Source: Anabaena sp. UHCC 0187 | GTDB taxonomy: Bacteria; Cyanobacteriota; Cyanobacteriia; Cyanobacteriales; Nostocaceae | DNA length: 42,832 nt | Direction of reading: 5' to 3' | Assembly (NCBI RefSeq): GCF_009712035.1 | Contig: NZ_VILB01000024.1 | Location: 1-42,832, forward strand | Part shown: piece after piece, positions 1-7,782 of the stretch | Layout: each line of letters opens with the position of its first letter | How positions within the stretch are numbered: position 1 is the first letter of the stretch | The notes under the pieces: generated by a model | Databases searched by the model: none | What the model was told of the DNA's origin: nothing | Seen by the model: only the letters and a program-made list of their open reading frames with translations | Translations under genes and position numbers: made by a program

Positions 1-32
1 TATTTGTGCAGAGATTTCAGAACATGAACTCA

Positions 33-632
33 TTATTTTATTCCCGCTAAAATTTTTCTAATAGCAGAAATGCCATTAAAAATACTTGCACAATCCAGGC
101 AACAATCTCCACAGTCTAAAGTGTTGGGGGGGCATCCTTGTATACACTCGACTGTATAAATGGCTGAATTATAAGTCCCTGAGAATAATAAATTACCAGT
201 GGCAGAATACACCGAAATTTTATATTTTAATGTGTACGCTGGAGCCTTATAACTTAGCCCTAAACTAGTGAATACCGGATTCTCAATAAAGCCTCCACTT
301 ACGGTAATAATTCGCTCCCATATTGCTGTTTGGCTGCAGGTCCACAAAGCTGCCCCGTGACTAAGGATTTCTACCGCGTAGCCAAATCCGGAGGAAGTAA
401 TCGGGCGAATAATTCGATATCCATAGTATTTAGTCCAATAAGTTCCCAGAGATTTTCTCTGCGTGCGGCTATCTCCTACGTGCGTATAAGTAAATTCAAA
501 ATTCCACCTTGCCTGGCAGGTAAGATCATCGCTTTCGATAGTGACGCTAATAGGAGTATCGGTAAAATCTTGAATACTTCCATCAGGGAAAGTTACGCGG
601 GCAATATCACCCGCTTGACAATGTACGGGCAT
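33..632 (-). CDS. Cys-rich structural-type protein of a mobile element (unknown function)
   Basis: I do not recognise an enzymatic family. The 199-residue protein has no signal peptide or membrane segment. It is rich in beta-prone residues and ends in a Cys-rich stretch (motifs CIQGCPPNTLDC and GDCCLDC, residues about 163-180). A CPPNT..DCG tail of this kind recurs, as far as I recall, in proteins of cyanobacterial prophage-like elements, so a particle or tail-associated role is possible; this is inference. The start codon overlaps the stop of the upstream gene (TAATG), which implies translational coupling and one minus-strand operon. The gene lies at the left edge of the accessory element, which continues beyond the window. 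Confidence 0.7.
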   Translation of the reverse strand: MPVHCQAGDIARVTFPDGSIQDFTDTPISVTIESDDLTCQARWNFEFTYTHVGDSRTQRKSLGTYWTKYYGYRIIRPITSSGFGYAVEILSHGAALWTCSQTAIWERIITVSGGFIENPVFTSLGLSYKAPAYTLKYKISVYSATGNLLFSGTYNSAIYTVECIQGCPPNTLDCGDCCLDCASIFNGISAIRKILAGIK

Positions 633-982
633 TAATATTTAGTAGGATCTAAAGTTGATTCTGAATCCACTTTTGCCAGATTAAAAATTATTTGATCAAT
701 CCTATATTGTGTAGTCCCTCTTGTAGTAAAGCTAGCGAATCCGTCCGAAAGGTACACGCTATTGTCATTATCTAAATCGTAAGCAGTCTGGCTAAGATTA
801 TCTTTTAGTAATTTCACTATTGCAACAATATGACCTTCAGCCGTTGCAGTAGTAGGAGTTGTCAGTCCCGCGCTAATAAGCAAGCTATCGGGAATAAAAA
901 GCCCTTCACTTGGCGCAGCCGCCCCACTAGCCAAGCGTGTTGCACCTGTACCTAAAATTTCTACTAATGATTTTTCTGCCAT
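632..982 (-). CDS. Small hypothetical protein, first gene of the leftward pair
   Basis: This is a 116-residue soluble protein of unknown function. Its N-terminal half is Ala/Gly/Thr-rich (LGTGATRLASGAAAPSEG). The C-terminal half contains DLDNDNSVYLSDGFASFTTR, resembling small phage structural or tail accessory proteins in composition only. The stop codon overlaps the start of the Cys-rich gene downstream, so the two are probably co-translated. No clear Shine-Dalgarno sequence is visible, which is common in cyanobacteria. The 221 bases upstream separate it from the divergent recombinase gene at 1204 and are AT-rich; they presumably hold both promoters, but I cannot place them. Confidence 0.65.
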   Translation of the reverse strand: MAEKSLVEILGTGATRLASGAAAPSEGLFIPDSLLISAGLTTPTTATAEGHIVAIVKLLKDNLSQTAYDLDNDNSVYLSDGFASFTTRGTTQYRIDQIIFNLAKVDSESTLDPTKY

Positions 983-1203
983 GATGAATTAATTATTGTT
1001 AATAATGAATAATCAATTATTAGTTCATCTGCAAAAGTCTGTAAATATTCCACTTTTACATAAAAACGGAATATCAAATAATATGCTGTAACTATTGCCA
1101 TATATGGAATACAGGTTATTATAGATAGTGGGTAATAAAGAAAGTATTCCAGATTTACCATCCTTCAAGGTAAAACCGGAATAGCTAAAGGTAAAACTTT
1201 TTT

Positions 1204-1782
1204 ATGAAAAATGATAGATGCGGAAAAGCCGCAACTTTAACTGAAAATGATTACTCAAAATTAAGAAGAAATATTAAAACGCTTAAATACAAATTACTAT
1301 TGGATCTAGCTTGGTACACGGGTGAAAGGTGGGGGGCTTTGGTGCAATTGCGGGTATCTGATGTGTACAATTTGGATAGCTCGCCACGGGACGTGATCAC
1401 TTTTCGCGCTGCCACCAGAAAAAAGCGACCCGATGGAAGTTGTGAAACTAGACAAGTACCAGTGCACCCGGTTTTGTTTGAAAATTTGCGGAGTTACCAG
1501 CCTGGTTCTAATCCCTGGATGTTTCCGAATAGGGAAGGGGATAAAAGTGTGACCTGGCGAAATGTCTACGCGATTTTCATGAAGGCTGTGGAAAATGCTG
1601 GTTTAACTGCCAAAGGTATCAGCACTCATTCCACGCGCCGAAGTTTTATCACTAAGTTACATAATAATGGTGTGGCGACTGCGACCATCAAGAAAATTAC
1701 CGGACACCGTGATTTTAAAGCTTTAGAAGGATATATAGACATTAGCGTTAACGAGATTAGAGGAGCAATCGCCACGTTATGA
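1204..1782 (+). CDS. Short tyrosine recombinase (phage-type integrase, catalytic domain only)
   Basis: The 192-residue protein consists almost only of the catalytic domain of tyrosine recombinases, which cut and rejoin DNA at attachment sites through a 3'-phosphotyrosine. The full catalytic set is visible: Arg42 in TGERWGAL, a Lys at 73/74, His142-x-x-Arg145 (HSTRR), His168 in GHRDF and the nucleophile Tyr177 (EGYID). The usual N-terminal core-binding domain, about 100-150 residues, is missing. The protein may therefore be a minimal integrase or work with a partner. The stop overlaps the start of a 55-residue gene (ATGA). It lies inside an accessory element, divergent from the structural-type pair at 33-982. 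Whether it moves the whole element cannot be told, because the far left junction is not in the window. Confidence 0.85.
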   Translation: MKNDRCGKAATLTENDYSKLRRNIKTLKYKLLLDLAWYTGERWGALVQLRVSDVYNLDSSPRDVITFRAATRKKRPDGSCETRQVPVHPVLFENLRSYQPGSNPWMFPNREGDKSVTWRNVYAIFMKAVENAGLTAKGISTHSTRRSFITKLHNNGVATATIKKITGHRDFKALEGYIDISVNEIRGAIATL

Positions 1783-1946
1783 ATATTCCCCAACCTATAA
1801 AAAGTAAACTTGCTCAACTGGCCACTTTTCCAGAAAAATACACACTGATAGAATTAGCTACTGAATTACAGACGCTATTGGTACTGACAAAAGAAGCGGA
1901 AATACTAGAAACAGAATTAACCCAATCTGCTTTAACAATTGAGTAG
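1779..1946 (+). CDS. 55-residue helical protein overlapping the integrase
   Basis: This small gene starts at an ATG that shares four bases (ATGA) with the integrase stop and ends in TAG. The product begins MNIPQPIKSKLAQLATFPEKY and continues with a Leu/Glu-rich helix (LIELATELQTLLVLTKEAEILETEL) that could form a coiled coil. It is followed about 45 bases later by a good intrinsic terminator, so integrase and small gene form one short transcription unit. The overlap and the missing N-terminal domain of the integrase suggest an accessory or directionality factor, but this is only inference. The opposite-strand frame through here reads through the terminator and is not credible. Confidence 0.5.
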   Translation: MNIPQPIKSKLAQLATFPEKYTLIELATELQTLLVLTKEAEILETELTQSALTIE

Positions 1947-1992
1947 TGTTGTGGTATATTTGTACTTGGTAGATGAAAGTTTTGTTCTCCCG

Positions 1993-2035
1993 AAACTTCC
2001 CCATCCATGCGCGTTGGACGGGGAAGTTTTTTATT
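1993..2035 (+). terminator. Intrinsic terminator after the integrase unit
   Basis: The arms AAACTTCCCC (1993-2002) and GGGGAAGTTT (2020-2029) pair perfectly and are followed by a T-rich run (TTTTTTATTTT). The T-run is on the plus-strand side, so it ends the integrase transcript. It lies between two converging units. Confidence 0.8.
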
Positions 2036-2040
2036 TTGGG

Positions 2041-2805
2041 TCACGCCGCTACTGGCTTAATTAGTAATTGAATTTCATTTGGCGACTTACCAAGTGCGAT
2101 CGCTCTTTCAACTCGCTCTTTAATCTCCAAACATTTATCAGAAGTAGTATTACCACCAGGTATGTGGATGTGTTTAATCTTAGATTGGTAATAACAGTAG
2201 CGGTAATACCAATATTTATTACCGCCACGGCTAACATAATAAGCTTCAATCCATTGGTTAATTTTAGACTTTTCCAGAACATCATTTGCTTGTTCTGGAA
2301 AGCTCAATATTGAAACCGATGACGATTCTATAGGGTTTACCCCTAAGGTGGACTGTACTGAAGATGGGAGTAACTGCGACAACTCTGACAAGCATACTTT
2401 CACCTTAATGATTTCATCAGCAAAATATCCCTGCGCCTTAGAAACTGTATTAAACAGTTTAGTGATTTTAAATTGAGAATTTCTGGAAGAATGCCAATAA
2501 ACTTTTCCCTCTTCAAAATGCCACCCTTGAACCGGTGACTCTTCCAGAACATCAATAACCGGACTCATCGCTGGTTTAAAATCTGGATGCAGTTTCTCCC
2601 AATCGGTCCAGGCAAGTTCAAAGTCGGTGATATTTTCAAAGTCGTCTGGGTCAGGCGGTTCGTCAGACGGATCATAAAAAAGTGTCGTTTGCCCATCAGA
2701 CTCAACTTTTCCAGAACAATCTAATATCACCTCATCCCAGTACGGGTCTTTTATTACTGGGCGTTGGACTTGTTCATATTCTGCAAGGTTAAATAATGTA
2801 CTCAT
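2041..2805 (-). CDS. Hypothetical element protein with C-terminal KHIHIPGGNT motif
   Basis: This is a protein of about 254 residues of unknown function. I place the start at the ATG at 2805 (MSTLFNLAEYEQ) because it overlaps the stop of the upstream small gene (ATGA) and a strong GGAGG lies just before it; a longer form from 2847 is possible. The N-terminal half is acidic. The C-terminal 70 residues contain a Tyr-rich, basic segment, KYWYYRYCYYQSKIKHIHIPGGN, recalled from proteins on cyanobacterial plasmids and prophages, followed by an amphipathic helix. The motif suggests nucleic-acid binding, unproven. It is the last gene of the leftward block. The DNA contains four copies of the nonamer TTCCAGAAC, two of them as an 11-bp inverted repeat. 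Confidence 0.75.
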   Translation of the reverse strand: MSTLFNLAEYEQVQRPVIKDPYWDEVILDCSGKVESDGQTTLFYDPSDEPPDPDDFENITDFELAWTDWEKLHPDFKPAMSPVIDVLEESPVQGWHFEEGKVYWHSSRNSQFKITKLFNTVSKAQGYFADEIIKVKVCLSELSQLLPSSVQSTLGVNPIESSSVSILSFPEQANDVLEKSKINQWIEAYYVSRGGNKYWYYRYCYYQSKIKHIHIPGGNTTSDKCLEIKERVERAIALGKSPNEIQLLIKPVAA

Positions 2806-2984
2806 GATTCCTCCACTGGTGCATGAGGAATCAGGTAGTAAGGACATGGTGAATAATTACCATGCGATAAATGCAGATAAAAAAAGCCTTTACAGTAAAC
2901 AGCAATAGGGTAGTGCAAGCTCTGTATATCCAATTTGGTAACAGAGCCGGCATCATCATATAAACGAATTTTCATGGTAAACAC
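2802..2984 (-). CDS. Small conserved-type element protein (60 aa)
   Basis: The 60-residue protein (MFTMKIRLYDDAGSVTKLD...) has no recognised domain. The start may be the second Met (MKIRLYDD, 2975). The middle is aromatic and hydrophobic (IAVYCKGFFYLHL) but too short and polar at the flanks for a certain membrane helix. Its stop overlaps the start of the next gene by the ATGA arrangement with GGAGG inside its own 3' end, so the downstream gene is translationally coupled. It belongs to the leftward block controlled from the repressor region. Confidence 0.6.
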   Translation of the reverse strand: MFTMKIRLYDDAGSVTKLDIQSLHYPIAVYCKGFFYLHLSHGNYSPCPYYLIPHAPVEES

Positions 2985-2998
2985 TTGGTATTAAACTA

Positions 2999-3199
2999 TT
3001 ATCTACCACTGGCACGGCGTGTGCTAGGACGACGGAATGGAACTATTTGATGAGTTACTGACTGAGATAATTCTCTGAGTGCATCACACCAAACTAGAGC
3101 TAAATCGGTGGGCATATTCTGAAAGTCAATTTCAGAAATAAACCGTCTCTTGATCCAATTCTTGAAAATTTCCTTCTGGCAGTTGTAGGGGTTATTCAT
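2999..3199 (-). CDS. Small basic element protein (66 aa)
   Basis: This is a 66-residue protein of unknown function with a strongly basic tail (PFRRPSTRRASGR) and a helical N-terminal part (EIFKNWIKRRFISEIDF). Its ATG lies inside the last codons of the upstream winged-helix gene, an 8-bp overlap, so translation is coupled. The basic tail would suit DNA or RNA contact, and the coupling to a replication-type protein suggests a helper role. Both are inference. Confidence 0.6.
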   Translation of the reverse strand: MNNPYNCQKEIFKNWIKRRFISEIDFQNMPTDLALVWCDALRELSQSVTHQIVPFRRPSTRRASGR

Positions 3200-3923
3200 T
3201 TAAAATTTGTGGGTCAAAACCAATAATTGCAAATTTCTCGGCTATCCACTCTCTAGCAATGGGTGACATATTCCATTCAGTTTGCCACCTTCTGAGGGTT
3301 AGTTCAGCATCTTGGTAGCGTATTTCAAATGCGCTGGCAAGTTTCCTCGCTACAGATGTCATCAAGTTTGATTTTTCTGCTTTCTCTTCTTCTGATTTTT
3401 CAAAAAGTTCTGGCTTTGGTGCTTCTTTCTTTGTCTTTAACTTTGGAGGAACTATATTGAACTCTATGTTATTGTTTGCGCTGTTTTGAGCATTGGAAGG
3501 CTCAATTTCTACAGTTGGATTTGGTGGTATCTCATCTTCCATTTGCTCATCCTGACAAATGAGTGAATTCAAGGCTTTCTGTACTTTATCCACCTCTAGT
3601 TTATATTGCCAAGTTCTGTCATACTTGATGTGTGGGTTGTGACGCTTGCTAATAAATCCCAACTCTTCCAGAACAGAAATACCTTTCCTAATGGCGTGAA
3701 CCCCATGTTCACCCATTAATTCATTCTGTAAACAGGACAAGGATTTATAAATCCATTCCCGGACTGTATTACTCATTCCATTTAGTTTGTTAGTCCAGAA
3801 TTCAAATATTGCCAATAACTTGGCAGCACAATGATTACCAGTGATTTCTAGATAGTCACTCCTGAGTAAAACTAAGGGAGTTTTATCAGGATGTTGAATA
3901 CAGCTTTTTGGCTTTGTTGTCAT
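3192..3923 (-). CDS. Winged-helix replication-type protein (DnaD/phage replisome-like)
   Basis: The 243-residue protein has an N-terminal region (about 15-115) resembling winged-helix domains of phage and plasmid replication proteins. It has a helix-rich start (LLRSDYLEITGNHCAAKLLAIFEFW), then SCLQNELMGEHGVHAIRKGISVLEELGFISKR, which reads like the wing-helix 'new rule, relapse' pattern of Rep/DnaD proteins. A Lys/Glu/Pro-rich linker follows (about 130-190), and a C-terminal basic helical block (RKLASAFEIRYQDAELTLRRWQTEW). The likely role is starting replication of the element, by position next to a repressor and by fold, not by a decisive motif. A near-perfect palindrome lies 24 bases upstream of the start and may be an operator. 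Confidence 0.55.
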   Translation of the reverse strand: MTTKPKSCIQHPDKTPLVLLRSDYLEITGNHCAAKLLAIFEFWTNKLNGMSNTVREWIYKSLSCLQNELMGEHGVHAIRKGISVLEELGFISKRHNPHIKYDRTWQYKLEVDKVQKALNSLICQDEQMEDEIPPNPTVEIEPSNAQNSANNNIEFNIVPPKLKTKKEAPKPELFEKSEEEKAEKSNLMTSVARKLASAFEIRYQDAELTLRRWQTEWNMSPIAREWIAEKFAIIGFDPQILNE

Positions 3924-3946
3924 AATTTTGAATGCAAGAATCTGTC

Positions 3947-3967
3947 ACCACCTAACAGTTAGGTGGT
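3947..3967. promoter_or_regulatory. 21-bp palindrome upstream of the replication-type gene
   Basis: The arms ACCACCTAAC and GTTAGGTGGT flank a single central A. With a one-base centre it is unlikely to be a hairpin terminator and there is no T-run, so a dimeric regulator site is the better reading. It lies between the XRE gene and the winged-helix gene. Confidence 0.5.
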
Positions 3968-3996
3968 CAGGATGTTGATGGGATTTAATAAGTTAT

Positions 3997-4257
3997 TTAG
4001 TCTTCTGTCTCTGTATGTACTGGGGGTCCGAAATTGTCGGGCAAGTCTGTTACCTTCTCAATCTTCAACTCTCTACATAAATTCTTGAGTTGAGAAATAG
4101 TGGGTCTAGCTTCAGCCCTCCCAGAAATCCACCGTAAATATGTGGTACGAGGTATGCCACATTTCATAGCGAATTCATCTTGAGTGAGCGTGGTGCGTTC
4201 AATCCGAAGGGTGTCCAATGGTGAATCACTCTCCTGTTTGTTTTTACTTTTTATCAT
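3997..4257 (-). CDS. XRE-family HTH repressor
   Basis: The 86-residue protein is little more than a Cro/CI-type helix-turn-helix: TLTQDEFAMKCGIPRTTYLRW (about 23-43) covers helices 2 and 3, followed by ISGRAEARPTISQLKNLCRELKI. The N-terminal tail is charged; there is no dimerisation or peptidase domain as in full CI repressors. It is divergent from the rightward gene run, and the 70 bases beside its start contain a repeat-rich operator overlapping a sigma-70 type promoter. It probably represses rightward transcription and possibly itself. A TTAGG sequence precedes the ATG at suitable spacing. Confidence 0.8.
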   Translation of the reverse strand: MIKSKNKQESDSPLDTLRIERTTLTQDEFAMKCGIPRTTYLRWISGRAEARPTISQLKNLCRELKIEKVTDLPDNFGPPVHTETED

Positions 4258-4270
4258 GATAACCTAAGAT

Positions 4271-4325
4271 GTACCAATTTGGCATACCTAATTGACATAT
4301 TTAATTTGGCGTGCCATTATGGTAC
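4271..4325. promoter_or_regulatory. Phage-like operator region for the XRE repressor
   Basis: The region is bounded by inverted half-sites: GTACCA-N3-TGGC at the left (4271) and GCCA-N3-TGGTAC at the right, ending at 4325. It also holds a direct repeat, TTTGGCATACC and TTTGGCGTGCC. It lies between the divergent XRE gene and the rightward genes and encloses a promoter, which is the layout of a repressor-operator switch. Confidence 0.6.
4292..4320 (+). promoter_or_regulatory. Rightward promoter of the early genes
   Basis: A perfect -35 TTGACA (4292-4297), a 17-bp spacer and a -10 CATTAT (4315-4320) point to the right. Both elements are inside the inverted-repeat operator, so bound repressor would block polymerase. 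Transcription would begin near 4327. Confidence 0.6.
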
Positions 4326-4626
4326 TTGTGAGACAACAACAAACCAGCCGAGTCATTAACTCGGTAAATAGTAAACACTTAGCTGGTTGCTCAAAGTCTC
4401 TCACCTTTACCGCATCGGTAAAACTGTGGACAGTTCACTTTTGAACACCCGCTCCCACCCCACACCGGGGATTACCACCAGGAGCAACAACCCACGCCTA
4501 GACCTTGCGTGGACAAACTGCAATCACCGGAGACTTAGTTGCTGATCACGAGTTGACAGCGCGGTGATATTTTCTCGTTTAATGTCCAGTCAACATAACA
4601 ACTAACAACAAACAACGAACAAAAAC
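4326..4626 (+). ncRNA. Highly structured 300-nt leader (candidate RNA element)
   Basis: There is no open frame between the promoter and the first gene at 4627. The stretch can form at least six hairpins: CCGAG/CTCGG (4348-4364) beside AACCAGC/GCTGGTT (4342-4388), TTTACCG-CAT-CGGTAAA (4406-4422), GTTCA/TGAAC (4433-4446), CCACGC/GCGTGG (4492-4512) and ATCACC/GGTGAT (4523-4568). No known riboswitch is recognised. It could be a regulatory leader, an antisense-controlled RNA or a replication origin. The pairing is seen in the sequence; the role is inferred. Confidence 0.45.
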
Positions 4627-4815
4627 ATGAGGATAACAACAGTTCAAGAACTAAGAGAAAAGCTTGACGGTTTTGATAATGACACGCCTATCTTTGTAGA
4701 CTATCAAGGTGTTCAATTCAACGCTGAACAAGTCAAAGAATGCGGTGATAGCCTAGTGATTGGCATTGGCTATAACAATGACCGAGAAGAGGATGATTTG
4801 GCTGGTGAAGAGTAA
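4627..4815 (+). CDS. Small acidic protein (62 aa), first early gene
   Basis: The 62-residue protein has a very acidic tail (NDREEDDLAGEE). The N-terminal pattern TVQELREKLDGFDNDTPIFVDY matches the general 'x-LxxL-DTPVxV' layout of small proteins found in phages and plasmids, function unknown. It is the first coding region after the structured leader and promoter. Strong negative charge in early element genes sometimes marks anti-restriction or DNA-mimic proteins; there is no direct evidence here. Confidence 0.6.
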   Translation: MRITTVQELREKLDGFDNDTPIFVDYQGVQFNAEQVKECGDSLVIGIGYNNDREEDDLAGEE

Positions 4816-4856
4816 TTAATACTCGCTTTTAGTGTGTTCCTGACCTGATGACTAAA

Positions 4857-4906
4857 TTGGTAATAGGGGAAATTCTCTATTACCAATTACCAATTACCAA
4901 TTACCA
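4857..4906 (+). repeat. Hairpin plus four ATTACCA heptamers (STRR-type)
   Basis: A perfect 10-bp hairpin (TTGGTAATAG 4857-4866, CTATTACCAA 4877-4886) merges into four tandem ATTACCA units (4879-4906). Short tandem heptamers are typical of heterocystous cyanobacteria. The array ends six bases before the next ATG. Confidence 0.75.
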
Positions 4907-4912
4907 ATTCTC

Positions 4913-5236
4913 ATGGATCTACCATGTTGGTTAACTAAAAAGCAGCTATATGTTGCACAACAATTAATCAATCAAGGCTTTCACTACTGCGGTAATGCTG
5001 ATGGTTATTGTGAGCCTAATTTCTCCATACCCATAATCGACGGCTGGGAATTATCTTTCCCACCTGGTGAGTGCTTCCTTGACGCAAGTTGCAACAAGGC
5101 ATTATTTACCAAGAATCTAGAGGGTAAAGAATTTAATTTTCAAGCAGAATTAAAAGCTACTAGAAGATTAATTCGTACCGCATCTAAAGAATGCGATTGT
5201 ACAGGTATAAACCATTATCAACTGGCTTTATTCTGA
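4913..5236 (+). CDS. Hypothetical element protein (107 aa)
   Basis: This is a 107-residue soluble protein of unknown function. It contains several Cys residues (LPCW, HYCGNADGYCEP, GECFLDASC, ECDCTG) in pairs that could bind metal, but no standard zinc-finger spacing. WLTKKQLYVAQQLINQGFHYC near the start looks like a helix-rich binding segment. The start ATG directly follows the heptamer array, with no Shine-Dalgarno visible. The next gene starts two bases after the stop, so they are one unit. Confidence 0.55.
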   Translation: MDLPCWLTKKQLYVAQQLINQGFHYCGNADGYCEPNFSIPIIDGWELSFPPGECFLDASCNKALFTKNLEGKEFNFQAELKATRRLIRTASKECDCTGINHYQLALF

Positions 5237-5238
5237 TT

Positions 5239-5412
5239 ATGAAAACATATCAAGATTTACTCAAACCTTGGGCTGTATTCTGCTTAAAGGAAGCATTTTG
5301 CCATGTCTGCGTTGCTAGGTTTCGCAGTAGAACTGATGCCGAACAATATCGGTCTTTGATGTCTCGCGCAAATTCTAAATTTTTCTATGAGGTAGTTTTT
5401 GATAATGATTAA
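5239..5412 (+). CDS. Small hypothetical protein (57 aa)
   Basis: The product begins MKTYQDLLKPWAVFC and has the aromatic/Arg-rich centre VCVARFRSRTDAEQYRSL, which resembles small 'SPOR-like' or DUF-type phage proteins of the form W-V-x-R-F-x-x-x-x-D-A-E. I chose the ATG at 5239 rather than an upstream start at 5191 because the latter runs inside the preceding gene. The end overlaps the start of the next gene, which fits a compact early operon. Confidence 0.5.
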   Translation: MKTYQDLLKPWAVFCLKEAFCHVCVARFRSRTDAEQYRSLMSRANSKFFYEVVFDND

Positions 5413-5686
5413 AACCATCACCTACAAACGAATTATAAACTTAGGTAATTATGAAAGTAAGCATTTAGAGATTGCTTACGAAGTCGAGGAACATGACGAC
5501 CCGATGGTTAAAATATCCGAGCTAATGGAATCAACGGAATGGAAGATTAGAGAAGACCAGACCGAACCAATTTTATCAGAAATTGCATCACTGCGTCACG
5601 AATTGCGTAGTTTGAAAACCGAACACCGAGAACTACTTGATAAAATCAATGGCAACAACTCAACTACTGATGGAGATATTTTTTAA
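5405..5686 (+). CDS. Small coiled-coil protein of the KRIINLGNYESKHLE type
   Basis: This 93-residue protein (95 from an alternative ATG at 5399) starts MIKTITYKRIINLGNYESKHLEIAYEVEEHDD. The sequence matches a family I recall from cyanobacterial plasmids and phages with the pattern 'KR-x-NLGNYES-x-x-LE', function unknown. The C-terminal half is a predicted coiled coil (LSEIASLRHELRSLKTEHRELLDKI), suggesting an oligomer. Its stop shares bases with the start of the next gene (TAATG). Confidence 0.6.
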   Translation: MIKTITYKRIINLGNYESKHLEIAYEVEEHDDPMVKISELMESTEWKIREDQTEPILSEIASLRHELRSLKTEHRELLDKINGNNSTTDGDIF

Positions 5687-5958
5687 TGGATGAAATAATC
5701 ATCGAGAAACCGTATTTAATCCCCTATGACGATGAGTACGTATTAGTTAGTAAACGTCGATTAATAGCTGGTAATAATTGCGTGGCAGCTATGGCTAATT
5801 TAATTTCTGGGCTAACCAATACGTCAATGACTTACATAATGACAAAATTCGCCAAGGAGTCTATCCGAATAGTTGAGAAATTGCCTCAATCAGAAATTGA
5901 TGAACAGATTGAAATTATTACCGCAACTTACAACGAACACCCAAAGAAAAGCGCATGA
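5686..5958 (+). CDS. Small element protein, first of two tandem paralogues
   Basis: The 90-residue protein has the pattern PYLIPYDDEYVLVSKRRLIAG near the start and IVEKLPQSEIDEQIEIITA near the end. The next gene has the same layout (VLLPYNDNYVLINKRSLLT ... FFQKLSQEEINNRVSSVIA), so the pair arose by tandem duplication. The function is unknown. The short length and helical C-terminus suggest a small DNA-binding or regulatory protein; this is not shown. It starts on the stop of the coiled-coil gene and overlaps its paralogue by four bases. Confidence 0.6.
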   Translation: MDEIIIEKPYLIPYDDEYVLVSKRRLIAGNNCVAAMANLISGLTNTSMTYIMTKFAKESIRIVEKLPQSEIDEQIEIITATYNEHPKKSA

Positions 5959-6257
5959 AACCTGATCAAAAAGTTCTTCTCCCTTACAACGATAACTACG
6001 TACTAATAAACAAACGATCACTTTTAACTAATGGTGCGGTGATGGACAGCTTGATAAGCTATATAGCCAAAGAAAGAGGCGTACCGGAAGATCAAGTAGC
6101 GATGGAATTCGGGCTTGATGCCGTTCTATTTTTCCAAAAATTATCACAAGAGGAAATTAATAATAGAGTGTCATCAGTTATTGCTAGTCACTGGAAAGCA
6201 AGTTCATCAAAATTATCTATTACCACAGTTTGCAACCCGCCTGACGAGGCTGTTTAA
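5955..6257 (+). CDS. Small element protein, second tandem paralogue
   Basis: The 100-residue protein is homologous to the preceding gene product over residues about 5-80 and has a short unique C-terminus (HWKASSSKLSITTVCNPPDEAV). It overlaps the upstream gene by ATGA and is the last gene of the rightward run. The next 271 bases are non-coding and lead into the DEDD recombinase. If that recombinase is a separate insertion sequence, this gene's 3' end could be close to its left end; the unusual tail leaves that open. Confidence 0.6.
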   Translation: MKPDQKVLLPYNDNYVLINKRSLLTNGAVMDSLISYIAKERGVPEDQVAMEFGLDAVLFFQKLSQEEINNRVSSVIASHWKASSSKLSITTVCNPPDEAV

Positions 6258-6267
6258 CCCAGCAGCC

Positions 6268-6500
6268 GAAACACTCCAATCCTGGAGTGTCGCGGATTGG
6301 GTCCAAACCAATCAGCAAAAAAAAGCACGATTAGCTTAGGGCTTTGAAAATGAATTAAGCTTTTGGCTTTCGGTTCTTCATAAGCTCGGTTAATTTGTGC
6401 TTTTAAAAATTGTGTTTTCCAGTGCTGCAAACATTGGAATTGCTTTGAGACTGAATCAGGCTGTTATGGCCTTTGGGTGATTCACAAGCGTTATTAACAC
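6268..6500 (+). ncRNA. Candidate bridge-type RNA upstream of the DEDD recombinase
   Basis: Five hairpins follow one another. They are ACACTCCA/TGGAGTGT (6271-6290) and GATTGG/CCAATC (6295-6313); a long one with AAAAGCAC/GTGCTTTT (6321-6404) enclosing AGCTTA/TAAGCT (6333-6386) and AAGC/GCTT (6357-6369); TTCCAGTG/CATTGGAA (6417-6439, one G-U); and TGAATC-AGGC/GCCT-GATTCA (6452-6484). The loop of the third holds GGTTCTTCA (6372-6380), identical to the end of the flanking DUF924 gene. Known: IS110-group elements encode a guide RNA 5' of their recombinase. Inferred: this is such an RNA with a target-binding loop. Confidence 0.5.
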
Positions 6501-6528
6501 AATCATTCCACCTACAGATAAAAACAGA

Positions 6529-7767
6529 ATGACTAGAATTGTGGGGTTAGATGTTTCTAAGTCCAGCGTTTCCTGCTGTCTACTGACTGAAAAACCAAGC
6601 AACCCAAGAGAATTTTACTATGAATGTCGGTTTTATAAATTCCAAACTGATCACGCTGGGTTAACTGGGTTGATGCTACTAAAACCAGAAATTGCAATTC
6701 TTGAACCTACGGGAATGAATTACTCAAAATTTTGGGTAGAGCATTTGAGCCGCGCTGGGGTTGAAATTAGATTTGTTGGTCACAAACAGTTAAGAAATTA
6801 CCGGGAAAATCACCTTGGCTTACCAGATAAAGATGATGATGCAGACTCTCTAGCTATTGCCTGCTATGGGTTTGACTATGGAAGTGATTTGAGTCGGTTT
6901 GTTCAAGTGCGCGATAGCGAAGCGCTGCTGCAAGCAGATCGCCTAATTTCCAGGATGAGAGAATTAGTTTTGCGACTTAACCACCTTTCCAGAATTCAAT
7001 CACCAATCATAAATCGGGCCCGCCAAGATTTGGCTTGGCAGTTCCCAGAAGTCGCTTTGGTTAAATCAGTTCGTGGTGATTCTGGAAAAGTTCCGCTGCT
7101 GTGGGGATGGTTAGCTGGCGAGAGAGAAAGCAAAAAGTATGACCGGCTCTATGCCCAAACAGCAGGAATAGGTTTAACAGACTCAGTTAAGTTTCACGCT
7201 CAGAGAATTTGTAGTTTACAACTAGAAGAGCAATTAATTGAGGATGAATTAGATACACTGCTTACTGATGAAAGGTTTAGCAGCTATCGTGAAGCCTTCC
7301 AGAAATTCAATTTTGGCGATAGCGAAGCGCTCCGTAGGAATCGCTTACAATCTATAATTTTGTCCCAAATTTACCCACTAGAAAACTACTTGGGCGAGGA
7401 TGGCAAACCAATTATCAAAATCAGGAAGGGGAGAAAATCTGGTAATCCTACCAAACGTCACCTGTCATTGAGAAAATTTCAGAAGGCTTTGGGAGTCGCG
7501 CCGTCCCAAGAATCAAGCGGTGATATATCCAAATCTAAGGTTTCTGGGGGTTCTGCCCTGTGCCGGCGGGCATTATGGCAGTGGGTATTCAGTGGTGTTG
7601 AACCTGTCAAGCGTCGGACTAATCCCATCCTGAATGATTTGGGCGTGTTTGTTGATGCTGAAAAGTTAGCAGGCAAACCAGTTAAATTAGTCAGGATGAG
7701 AGTAGCGGTCAAAGGTGTAAAACTCTTATTTAAGGAGCTTGTTTCGGCAACAAAAGTTCTAGACTGA
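6529..7767 (+). CDS. IS110-family DEDD recombinase/transposase
   Basis: The 412-residue protein has both IS110 domains. The RuvC-like N-terminal domain carries Asp8 (VGLDVSK), Glu59 (AILEPTG) and Asp103/Asp106 (DKDDDADS), matching the DEDD spacing of the family. A coiled-coil middle (about 125-150) leads to the C-terminal Transposase_20-like domain with Ser329-Ser330-Gly (SQESSGDISKSKVSG), where the family's second nucleophile lies. Known IS110 enzymes are guided by a bridge RNA. The gene is preceded by a folded non-coding stretch and ends 8 bases inside the DUF924 stop region, exactly at the element boundary. Two small dispersed repeats are inserted in frame. It is intact. It may be the integrase of the whole accessory element or a separate insertion sequence within it. 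Confidence 0.8.
   Translation: MTRIVGLDVSKSSVSCCLLTEKPSNPREFYYECRFYKFQTDHAGLTGLMLLKPEIAILEPTGMNYSKFWVEHLSRAGVEIRFVGHKQLRNYRENHLGLPDKDDDADSLAIACYGFDYGSDLSRFVQVRDSEALLQADRLISRMRELVLRLNHLSRIQSPIINRARQDLAWQFPEVALVKSVRGDSGKVPLLWGWLAGERESKKYDRLYAQTAGIGLTDSVKFHAQRICSLQLEEQLIEDELDTLLTDERFSSYREAFQKFNFGDSEALRRNRLQSIILSQIYPLENYLGEDGKPIIKIRKGRKSGNPTKRHLSLRKFQKALGVAPSQESSGDISKSKVSGGSALCRRALWQWVFSGVEPVKRRTNPILNDLGVFVDAEKLAGKPVKLVRMRVAVKGVKLLFKELVSATKVLD
6911..6942 (+). repeat. Small dispersed repeat inside the recombinase gene, copy 1
   Basis: It begins with the 16-mer GCGATAGCGAAGCGCT, shared exactly with the second copy, and ends in ATCGC, so the ends GCGAT/ATCGC are inverted. It is translated as RDSEALLQADR. 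It resembles the small mobile repeats described for Nostoc genomes. Confidence 0.6.
7316..7344 (+). repeat. Small dispersed repeat inside the recombinase gene, copy 2
   Basis: This is the same 16-mer as at 6911, in the same orientation and reading frame, then CCGTAGGAATCGC. It is translated as GDSEALRRNRL. It lies in the linker before the C-terminal domain, where an insertion may be tolerated. Confidence 0.6.
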
Positions 7768-7782
7768 AGAACCAGGTGCTTC
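7759..7782. other. Predicted right attachment junction at the DUF924 3' end
   Basis: The stop codon of DUF924 (7759-7761) lies inside the end of the recombinase gene. Read on the minus strand, the last codons give PGSSV; the family usually ends PGSSF, so the last codon and stop appear to come from the inserted element. GGTTCTTCA (minus strand, 7765-7773) repeats the candidate guide at 6372-6380. The partner junction is not in the window. Confidence 0.45.

Follow-up and report, generated by a model that had tools for sequence, protein, structure and literature searches.

What does the IS110-family DEDD recombinase encoded at positions 6529–7767 on the plus strand (412 amino acids) mobilise, and how is its insertion site chosen? 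These questions are raised by the window, a stretch of 42,832 nucleotides from Anabaena sp. UHCC 0187, for which an earlier note had proposed bridge-RNA-guided integration. Comparison with related sequences supports that proposal, and we regard it as very probable that the recombinase integrates a phage-like mobile element of large size, with guidance from a bridge RNA whose coding region lies immediately 5′ of the recombinase gene.

The assignment of the protein is clear from its match to the NCBIfam model NF051857 (transpos_IS110_2; E 3.2e-158, 526.9 bits against a cut-off of 180). Pfam Transposase_20 also scores above its cut-off (23 versus 21.3), while DEDD_Tnp_IS110 lies just below (25.3 versus 29) and NF033542 below (57.9 versus 140). 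The acidic tetrad and serine predicted from the single sequence hold up across the family: all 25 aligned recombinases have D8, E59, D103, D106 and S330, and in a larger set of 35 E59 is kept in at least 90% and the other four residues are invariant. A profile of the family returned no match among PDB sequences at E 0.01. Recombinase matches occur in 56 of 150 relative genomes, from which 40 loci were taken with their flanks for comparison. Scanning GTDB species yielded 72 loci, cyanobacterial without exception by title, with some contigs shared with the 150-genome search. The 113 loci used below combine 41 (the window and the fetched relatives) with these 72, and the two sets overlap. The viral contigs and GenBank phages searched contained no relatives, and the plasmid search returned two.

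The predicted bridge RNA occupies 6292–6528 on the plus strand, its 5′ end being placed by the putative ribozyme cleavage described below, and its 3′ end may run into the recombinase mRNA. The fold of this segment is more stable than that of shuffled sequences (z −3.2, with 0 of 200 as good). The structured non-coding region of about 230 bases described earlier is indeed present, but it extends leftwards to a hammerhead-like fold beginning at 6233, and instead of the five hairpins claimed the minimum-energy fold of the window itself has four hairpin loops in 6292–6528. An alignment of 22 of 38 upstream regions, from which duplicates and more divergent sequences were excluded, yields a consensus comprising a three-way junction like that of a ribozyme, one hairpin, and two stems interrupted by internal loops. 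Covariation, proposed earlier as a check on the RNA, was found: 26 of 45 pairs change on both sides among the 22 sequences, and the covariation score is 0.438, versus 0.179 (sd 0.012) for shuffled alignments and no more than 0.145 with partners slid out of register. Paired cells in the consensus amount to 93.0% versus 79.3%. The weaker one of five covariation measures, further pair types, gave 65 versus 59.4, a value reached in 16 of 500 shuffles.

The target-binding and donor-binding loops described for IS621 (PMC11208160) have their counterparts in these two internal-loop stems. In the first, the predicted left target guide AAAAT with the core GAA is found at 6347–6354, and the right target guide GGTTC with TTC at 6372–6379; in the second, the predicted left donor guide AGACT with GAA lies at 6448–6455 and the right donor guide GGTGA with TTC at 6476–6483 (all on the plus strand). 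The nine bases singled out in the earlier note as lying in a loop beside a TAAGCT strand fall in an open internal loop of the 22-sequence consensus, but all nine are paired in the minimum-energy fold of the window. Because the right guide is paired in that fold, the open state of the target loop rests on the consensus.

The nine-base match itself is real: GGTTCTTCA at 6372–6380 corresponds to TGAAGAACC at 7765–7773, the nine bases being read on the minus strand. The earlier estimate that such a match would arise by chance about once in twenty was also sound, as shuffled versions of 6292–6528 share a 9-mer with the junction in 3.8% of cases, and a single match therefore proves little. The decisive comparison is across homologues, where the check proposed in the earlier note succeeds: loop sequences covary with the insertion site. 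The target loop could be parsed in 80 of the 113 loci; 33 have no parsed loop, and 13 more have no right-end motif. Among 55 distinct pairs of right guide and right flank, 226 of 275 guide bases match, compared with a mean of 83.2 (sd 7.8, maximum 117) in 20,000 permutations. All five bases agree in 33 pairs, four in 10 and three or fewer in 12. A stricter parser was used for this test, since an earlier permutation test had included at least three loci (L041, L045 and L052) in which the donor loop was taken for the target loop. Among the 28 rows that have no right-end motif or match at fewer than four of five bases, nine (seven distinct loci) match exactly after a variant or more distant right-end-like motif, two match exactly with no such motif, and 17 show no exact match. 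Six of the unparsed loci (L163, L168, L172, L182, L196 and L208) match at four to five of five bases by eye and stand outside these counts.

For the window, the reverse complement of the right target guide and core is the right flank GAAGAACC, and the left target guide and core match the left flank on contig C56, in which TAAAAT is followed by GAATCCCC. Read from the sequences, the target rule is T-N5-GAA-N5, its left and right N5 matching the left and right target guides, respectively. Coincidence between guides and flanks, for which the chance of about 4% for a single match could be pleaded, has a negligible probability in our estimation, as none of 20,000 permutations reaches the observed value in each of three tests and the predictions made for left ends, given below, are borne out.

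The right end of the element, AGACT with the core GAA (AGACTGAA), lies at 7761–7768 on the plus strand, where homology to the sister copy stops, and is identical to the left donor guide and core. The right half of the target site, core GAA with GAACC, overlaps it at 7766–7773 (plus strand) in the 3′ end of a DUF924 gene. Across loci with a junction fixed by an exact right-guide match, to which the donor test was limited, the donor guide equals the right end perfectly in 30 of 35 distinct cases; 158 of 175 bases match, against 140.0 (sd 2.65) when permuted, a total not reached in 20,000 trials. Most donor guides are AGAGT or AGACT, with single AAAGT, AGAAT and AGAAG pairs in which both sides have changed. 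Four cases match at one base of five, three of them being probable parsing slips. The right donor guide and core have the reverse complement GAATCACC, from which the left end of the element, GAATCCCC, departs at one of the five bases after the core. The donor loop, as read from sequence, thus matches the right end and, bar one mismatch, the left end, with GAA as the shared core, which is kept at both junctions. Left ends derived directly from donor guides, GAATCACC and GAATCTCC, had yielded nothing convincing; it was a mismatch-tolerant search that gave GAATCCCC. As a separate observation, it is the target-site core that supplies the final bases of the recombinase stop codon TGA (7765–7767 of the window).

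A far left end, recognised by the left target guide and then GAATCCCC, is present in seven of the first eight loci for which deep upstream sequence was available, and left ends were then found exactly as predicted in two further loci (at −14474 in G043 and at −14198 for the second copy in G021). In nine of these ten loci the left end is 9–18 kb from the recombinase and all five guide bases match; the exception, G049, has none within 60 kb. GAATCCCC occurs 17 times in the ten sequences. One of the nine (G088a) is ambiguous, its left flank being the right end of another element. The base preceding the five left-target bases is T in 9/9 left ends. The left end of L167 lies at −6651, giving an element of about 8 kb, and seven measured elements span 10.1–19.0 kb from left end to stop codon. 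The estimate of more than 7 kb in the earlier note is accordingly exceeded, as the left end is 9–18 kb from the recombinase in nine of ten deep loci and 6.7 kb away in L167. Element size is approximately 8–19 kb in the main group and 4.6 kb in one divergent case, that of Picosynechococcus PCC 7117. In this relative the right guide, the donor guide and the right end all appear by eye to have GTA as their core in place of GAA, and the left end that such a core predicts, TTGTAGTATCCCC, is present exactly at −3182. Its element carries the full set of parts, from hammerhead-like motif and guides to both ends.

The genome of UHCC 0187 holds two full copies, with recombinases 92% identical and 89% DNA identity over 4336–7768. 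Both have the left guide AAAAT; the right guides are different (GAACC versus TACAA, written as target DNA). When left ends were sought in this genome with up to two mismatches, 61 places were returned, against 43 for a reversed control pattern. The left ends on contigs C33 and C56 are two of six places with one mismatch, and in both an intact GAATCCCC follows TAAAAT near a contig end. The element body in the window (1–6257) runs off the contig and its left arm is on C56; the interior is unassembled, and continuity between the two in this genome is presumed.

Sister genomes supply the sites in their uninterrupted state, and for both copies the intact target predicted from the two guides was found in them. 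The C56 flank neighbours the DUF924 gene in seven of the 12 sister genomes that have that gene; the part of the flank nearest the junction gave no alignment beyond short repeats. Five of the 12 have the 13-base target AAAATGAAGAACC exact and uninterrupted where the DUF924 gene stops, at its stop codon, four more have it with one mismatch, and three differ more (by eye). The site of the second copy, AAAATGAATACAA, is uninterrupted, with both flanks adjoining, in eight fetched sister loci, four of them exact and four with one mismatch. The corresponding 14-base sites occur exactly once each in four and seven of 16 genomes of the genus, and reversed controls gave one and three hits. In the window the element has entered the DUF924 stop codon and altered the last residue of the protein, whose end goes from PGSSF to PGSSV. 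Elsewhere, a piece of a third such element is seen on contig C44 of G000 (143648–146897; L138 and L219–L221), with a homologue of the gene for an 838 amino acid coiled-coil protein and no recombinase match.

These observations bear on the possibility that the mobile unit is a simple IS110 insertion sequence of 1.5 kb within an unrelated phage-like island, and that the insertion sequence alone moves. The IS110 elements of the literature are of that kind, being small and carrying the bridge RNA in the left non-coding end (PMC11208160). Here, however, the guide (at least four of five bases) followed by GAATCCCC is absent within 2 kb upstream in all 51 distinct loci with sequence reaching that far and within 4 kb in all 37 that extend to this distance, and appears 9–18 kb away in nine of ten deep loci; sister genomes have the flanks of the far left end and of the right end as neighbours; and both empty sites lack the whole element. 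We judge this explanation extremely improbable. The guide and flank matches, the agreement of donor guide with right end, the far left ends and the uninterrupted targets together make the recombinase look like the integrase of the whole element.

The body of the element also encodes a 192 amino acid tyrosine-recombinase-like protein (1204–1782; Pfam Phage_integrase match), a helicase-loader-like protein (3192–3923), a repressor-like protein (3997–4257) and small ORFs without assignment. Common to eight elements compared are the IS110 recombinase, a tyrosine-recombinase-like protein of about 190 amino acids and one further family. The presence of the tyrosine recombinase in 8/8 elements, and its Pfam match, would suit a scheme in which it is the integrase and the IS110 gene a passenger. 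That scheme appears very improbable, as it is the loops of an RNA beside the IS110 gene that specify the two ends and the two flanks, and the PCC 7117 element, which follows the same rule, has no integrase family among the matches of the five longer further ORFs scanned. The tyrosine-recombinase-like protein is perhaps a multimer resolvase, an idea suggested by G044, where two recombinase copies lie head to tail 15,393 bp apart.

Among the first 25 families listed for 117 of 152 called element ORFs are integrase, collagen/tail-fibre, helicase loader, HTH, amidase, HU and DDE transposase families. Lysozyme is present too, the PCC 7117 element encoding a phage lysozyme. Capsid, portal and large-terminase families do not figure among the matches listed for the 117 ORFs (the first 25 of 115 and of 39 families) or for proteins scanned singly. 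Two collagen-like proteins match the PHROG category 'virion structural protein', with matches that are weak or repeat-driven, and an HTH protein of the window has a weak match to 'terminase small subunit' (E 0.018). The element is here termed phage-like; we do not name it a phage.

The guide RNA is directly preceded by a fold resembling a hammerhead ribozyme (6233–6295, plus strand), with the layout CUGANGA, stem, GAAA, stem and UH, closed by CCGC/GCGG (stem I); a type I core and three stems are present. In the window the core CUGACGA is at 6241–6247, stem II at 6248–6267, GAA at 6268–6270 and stem III at 6271–6290, and the predicted cut falls after C6291. Of 87 distinct loci that have 450 nt of upstream sequence, 58 gave the motif under a strict parser and 29 failed, and none of 4350 shuffles gave it; a second parser found it in 27 of 41 loci and in none of 8200 shuffles, and another in 35 of 41, two with doubtful parses of stem III. 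In some of the missed loci (e.g. L054) the core is visible by eye and the stems are offset; in others it is not. Stems II and III contribute nine counted pairs, each of which has both partners changed somewhere in the alignment, and 82–85% of cells are paired. The distance from motif to recombinase start, in loci with the motif, has a median of 244 nt (163–302). At gathering thresholds neither the window nor 14 loci gave a ribozyme match in Rfam: Hammerhead_3 scored 13.5 bits in the window, far below its threshold of 48.5, and RAGATH-1-hammerhead 22.1 bits in L069, far below 56.3. A search with E up to 10 of a 341-base stretch gave no hammerhead, and hammerhead models were returned for shorter stretches only.

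From the sequences we infer a role for the hammerhead in guide maturation. The motif might instead trim the mRNA of the upstream operon or set the 5′ end of the recombinase mRNA, with no part in maturing the guide. Its overlap with the end of the ORF at 5955–6257 is compatible with that, as is the proposal that hammerheads flanking genes in prophages cut long phage transcripts (PMC3088659). What argues against that is the position of the motif, which abuts the guide RNA in diverged relatives as well, and we consider this alternative unlikely.

The guides themselves are highly variable. In eight chosen pairs of related loci they differ at 52 of 80 positions, versus 232 of 1646 in the rest of the RNA, and column entropy is 1.3–1.9 bits in the guides and below 0.6 at most nearby positions. 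Sixty pairs of recombinases that are 85–99.5% identical share on average 1.9 of five left and 1.4 of five right guide bases, a level about as low as that in distant pairs. If guide bases change far faster than the rest of the RNA, this may point to an active process of guide replacement. On balance we lean slightly towards a combined reading, again from sequence comparison, in which a self-cleaving ribozyme matures the guide RNA of the integrase by cutting it from a long transcript, so that in an element of 8–19 kb the guide can lie a long way from the left end, and in which active replacement of the ten guide bases, far faster than of other RNA positions, retargets each lineage.

In the mechanism we propose, the guide RNA would derive from a long transcript, and the hammerhead would cut after C6291, freeing the guide 5′ end at 6292. 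The released RNA would then load onto the recombinase. By analogy with known IS110 elements, the element would circularise by joining its right end to its left end, and the joined ends would insert into the predicted target TAAAATGAAGAACC.

The system shares with IS621 and the bridge-RNA insertion sequences of the IS110 group a DEDD and serine recombinase with an RNA upstream of its gene, a pair of internal loops carrying one left and one right guide each, a core included in all four pairings, and a left guide pairing with the bottom strand and a right guide with the top (PMC11208160; a further paper on such elements is PMC11208158). It differs from them in its size of 8–19 kb with cargo, in the core (GAA, or GTA in one relative, not CT) and in the hammerhead-like motif upstream (PMC11208160). 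A further difference from IS110-group insertion sequences is that the guide RNA is near the right end and far from the left, and hence not in the left non-coding end. The seekRNA elements of the IS1111/IS110 families likewise have an RNA-guided DEDD recombinase, and a circular intermediate is reported for them; unlike the present element they are small insertion sequences, and the sole ribozyme in the accessible text is an HDV cloning part (PMC11187229). In filamentous phages (the Thermus phiOH16 group and Neisseria Nf), an IS110 transposase at one end of the provirus is likewise the proposed integrase; a search of the indexed text for 'bridge RNA' gave 0 hits (PMC11437467).

Bacterial hammerheads resemble the present motif in catalytic core, three stems and a neighbourhood of mobile elements (PMC3088659; Rfam RAGATH-1-hammerhead and Hammerhead_3). 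The present motif is unlike those described in directly preceding a guide-like RNA and in scoring under the Rfam thresholds (PMC3088659). A hammerhead motif directly 5′ of a guide RNA was not found in the literature searched, coverage of which largely excludes bioRxiv and most subscription journals. Hammerhead and IS110 or bridge RNA share text in PMC4524478, PMC4806596 and PMC12643982, which to judge by title deal with the genomes of mycobacteria, nematodes of fish and editing in plants, and no title among the matches listed joins the two subjects. RAGATH RNA families take their name from having first been found near ribozymes. RAGATH-18-derived RNAs guide the TnpBs of IS607 elements, and there too a ribozyme-associated RNA turned out to guide a transposon enzyme; that enzyme is a nuclease, not a DEDD recombinase, and no hammerhead processing of the guide is seen in the passages available (PMC11061315).

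Bridge and seek RNAs in small insertion sequences (PMC11208160, PMC11187229) and IS110 integrases in filamentous phages (PMC11437467) are already known. If the present reading is true, bridge-RNA recombination also serves the integration of large cargo-bearing elements, beyond small insertion sequences. It would also define a natural family of RNA-guided integrases with a 13-base target and dozens of diverse guide and target pairs, including that of Picosynechococcus PCC 7117, a complete cultured strain in which genetic work is easy. The functions of bacterial hammerheads were described as unclear in 2011 (PMC3088659), and making the 5′ end of a guide RNA would be a testable job for them. The variable guides make the acquisition of new targets directly testable.

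Further observations concern the flanks and remnants of these elements. By eye, L032 and L035 are two elements with different guides inserted one base apart, just upstream of an apparent triosephosphate-isomerase gene, and L213, whose right-flank letters are identical to those of L032, is perhaps a further case. The right flank of L031 contains (query 83–533) a dispersed repeat of about 450 bases inside an otherwise conserved flank, with many copies in several genomes of the genus. Finally, same-genus genomes (e.g. G005, G008 and G012) contain recurrent fragments of the last 33–45 codons of the recombinase where the full gene is absent, as if right ends outlast decay.
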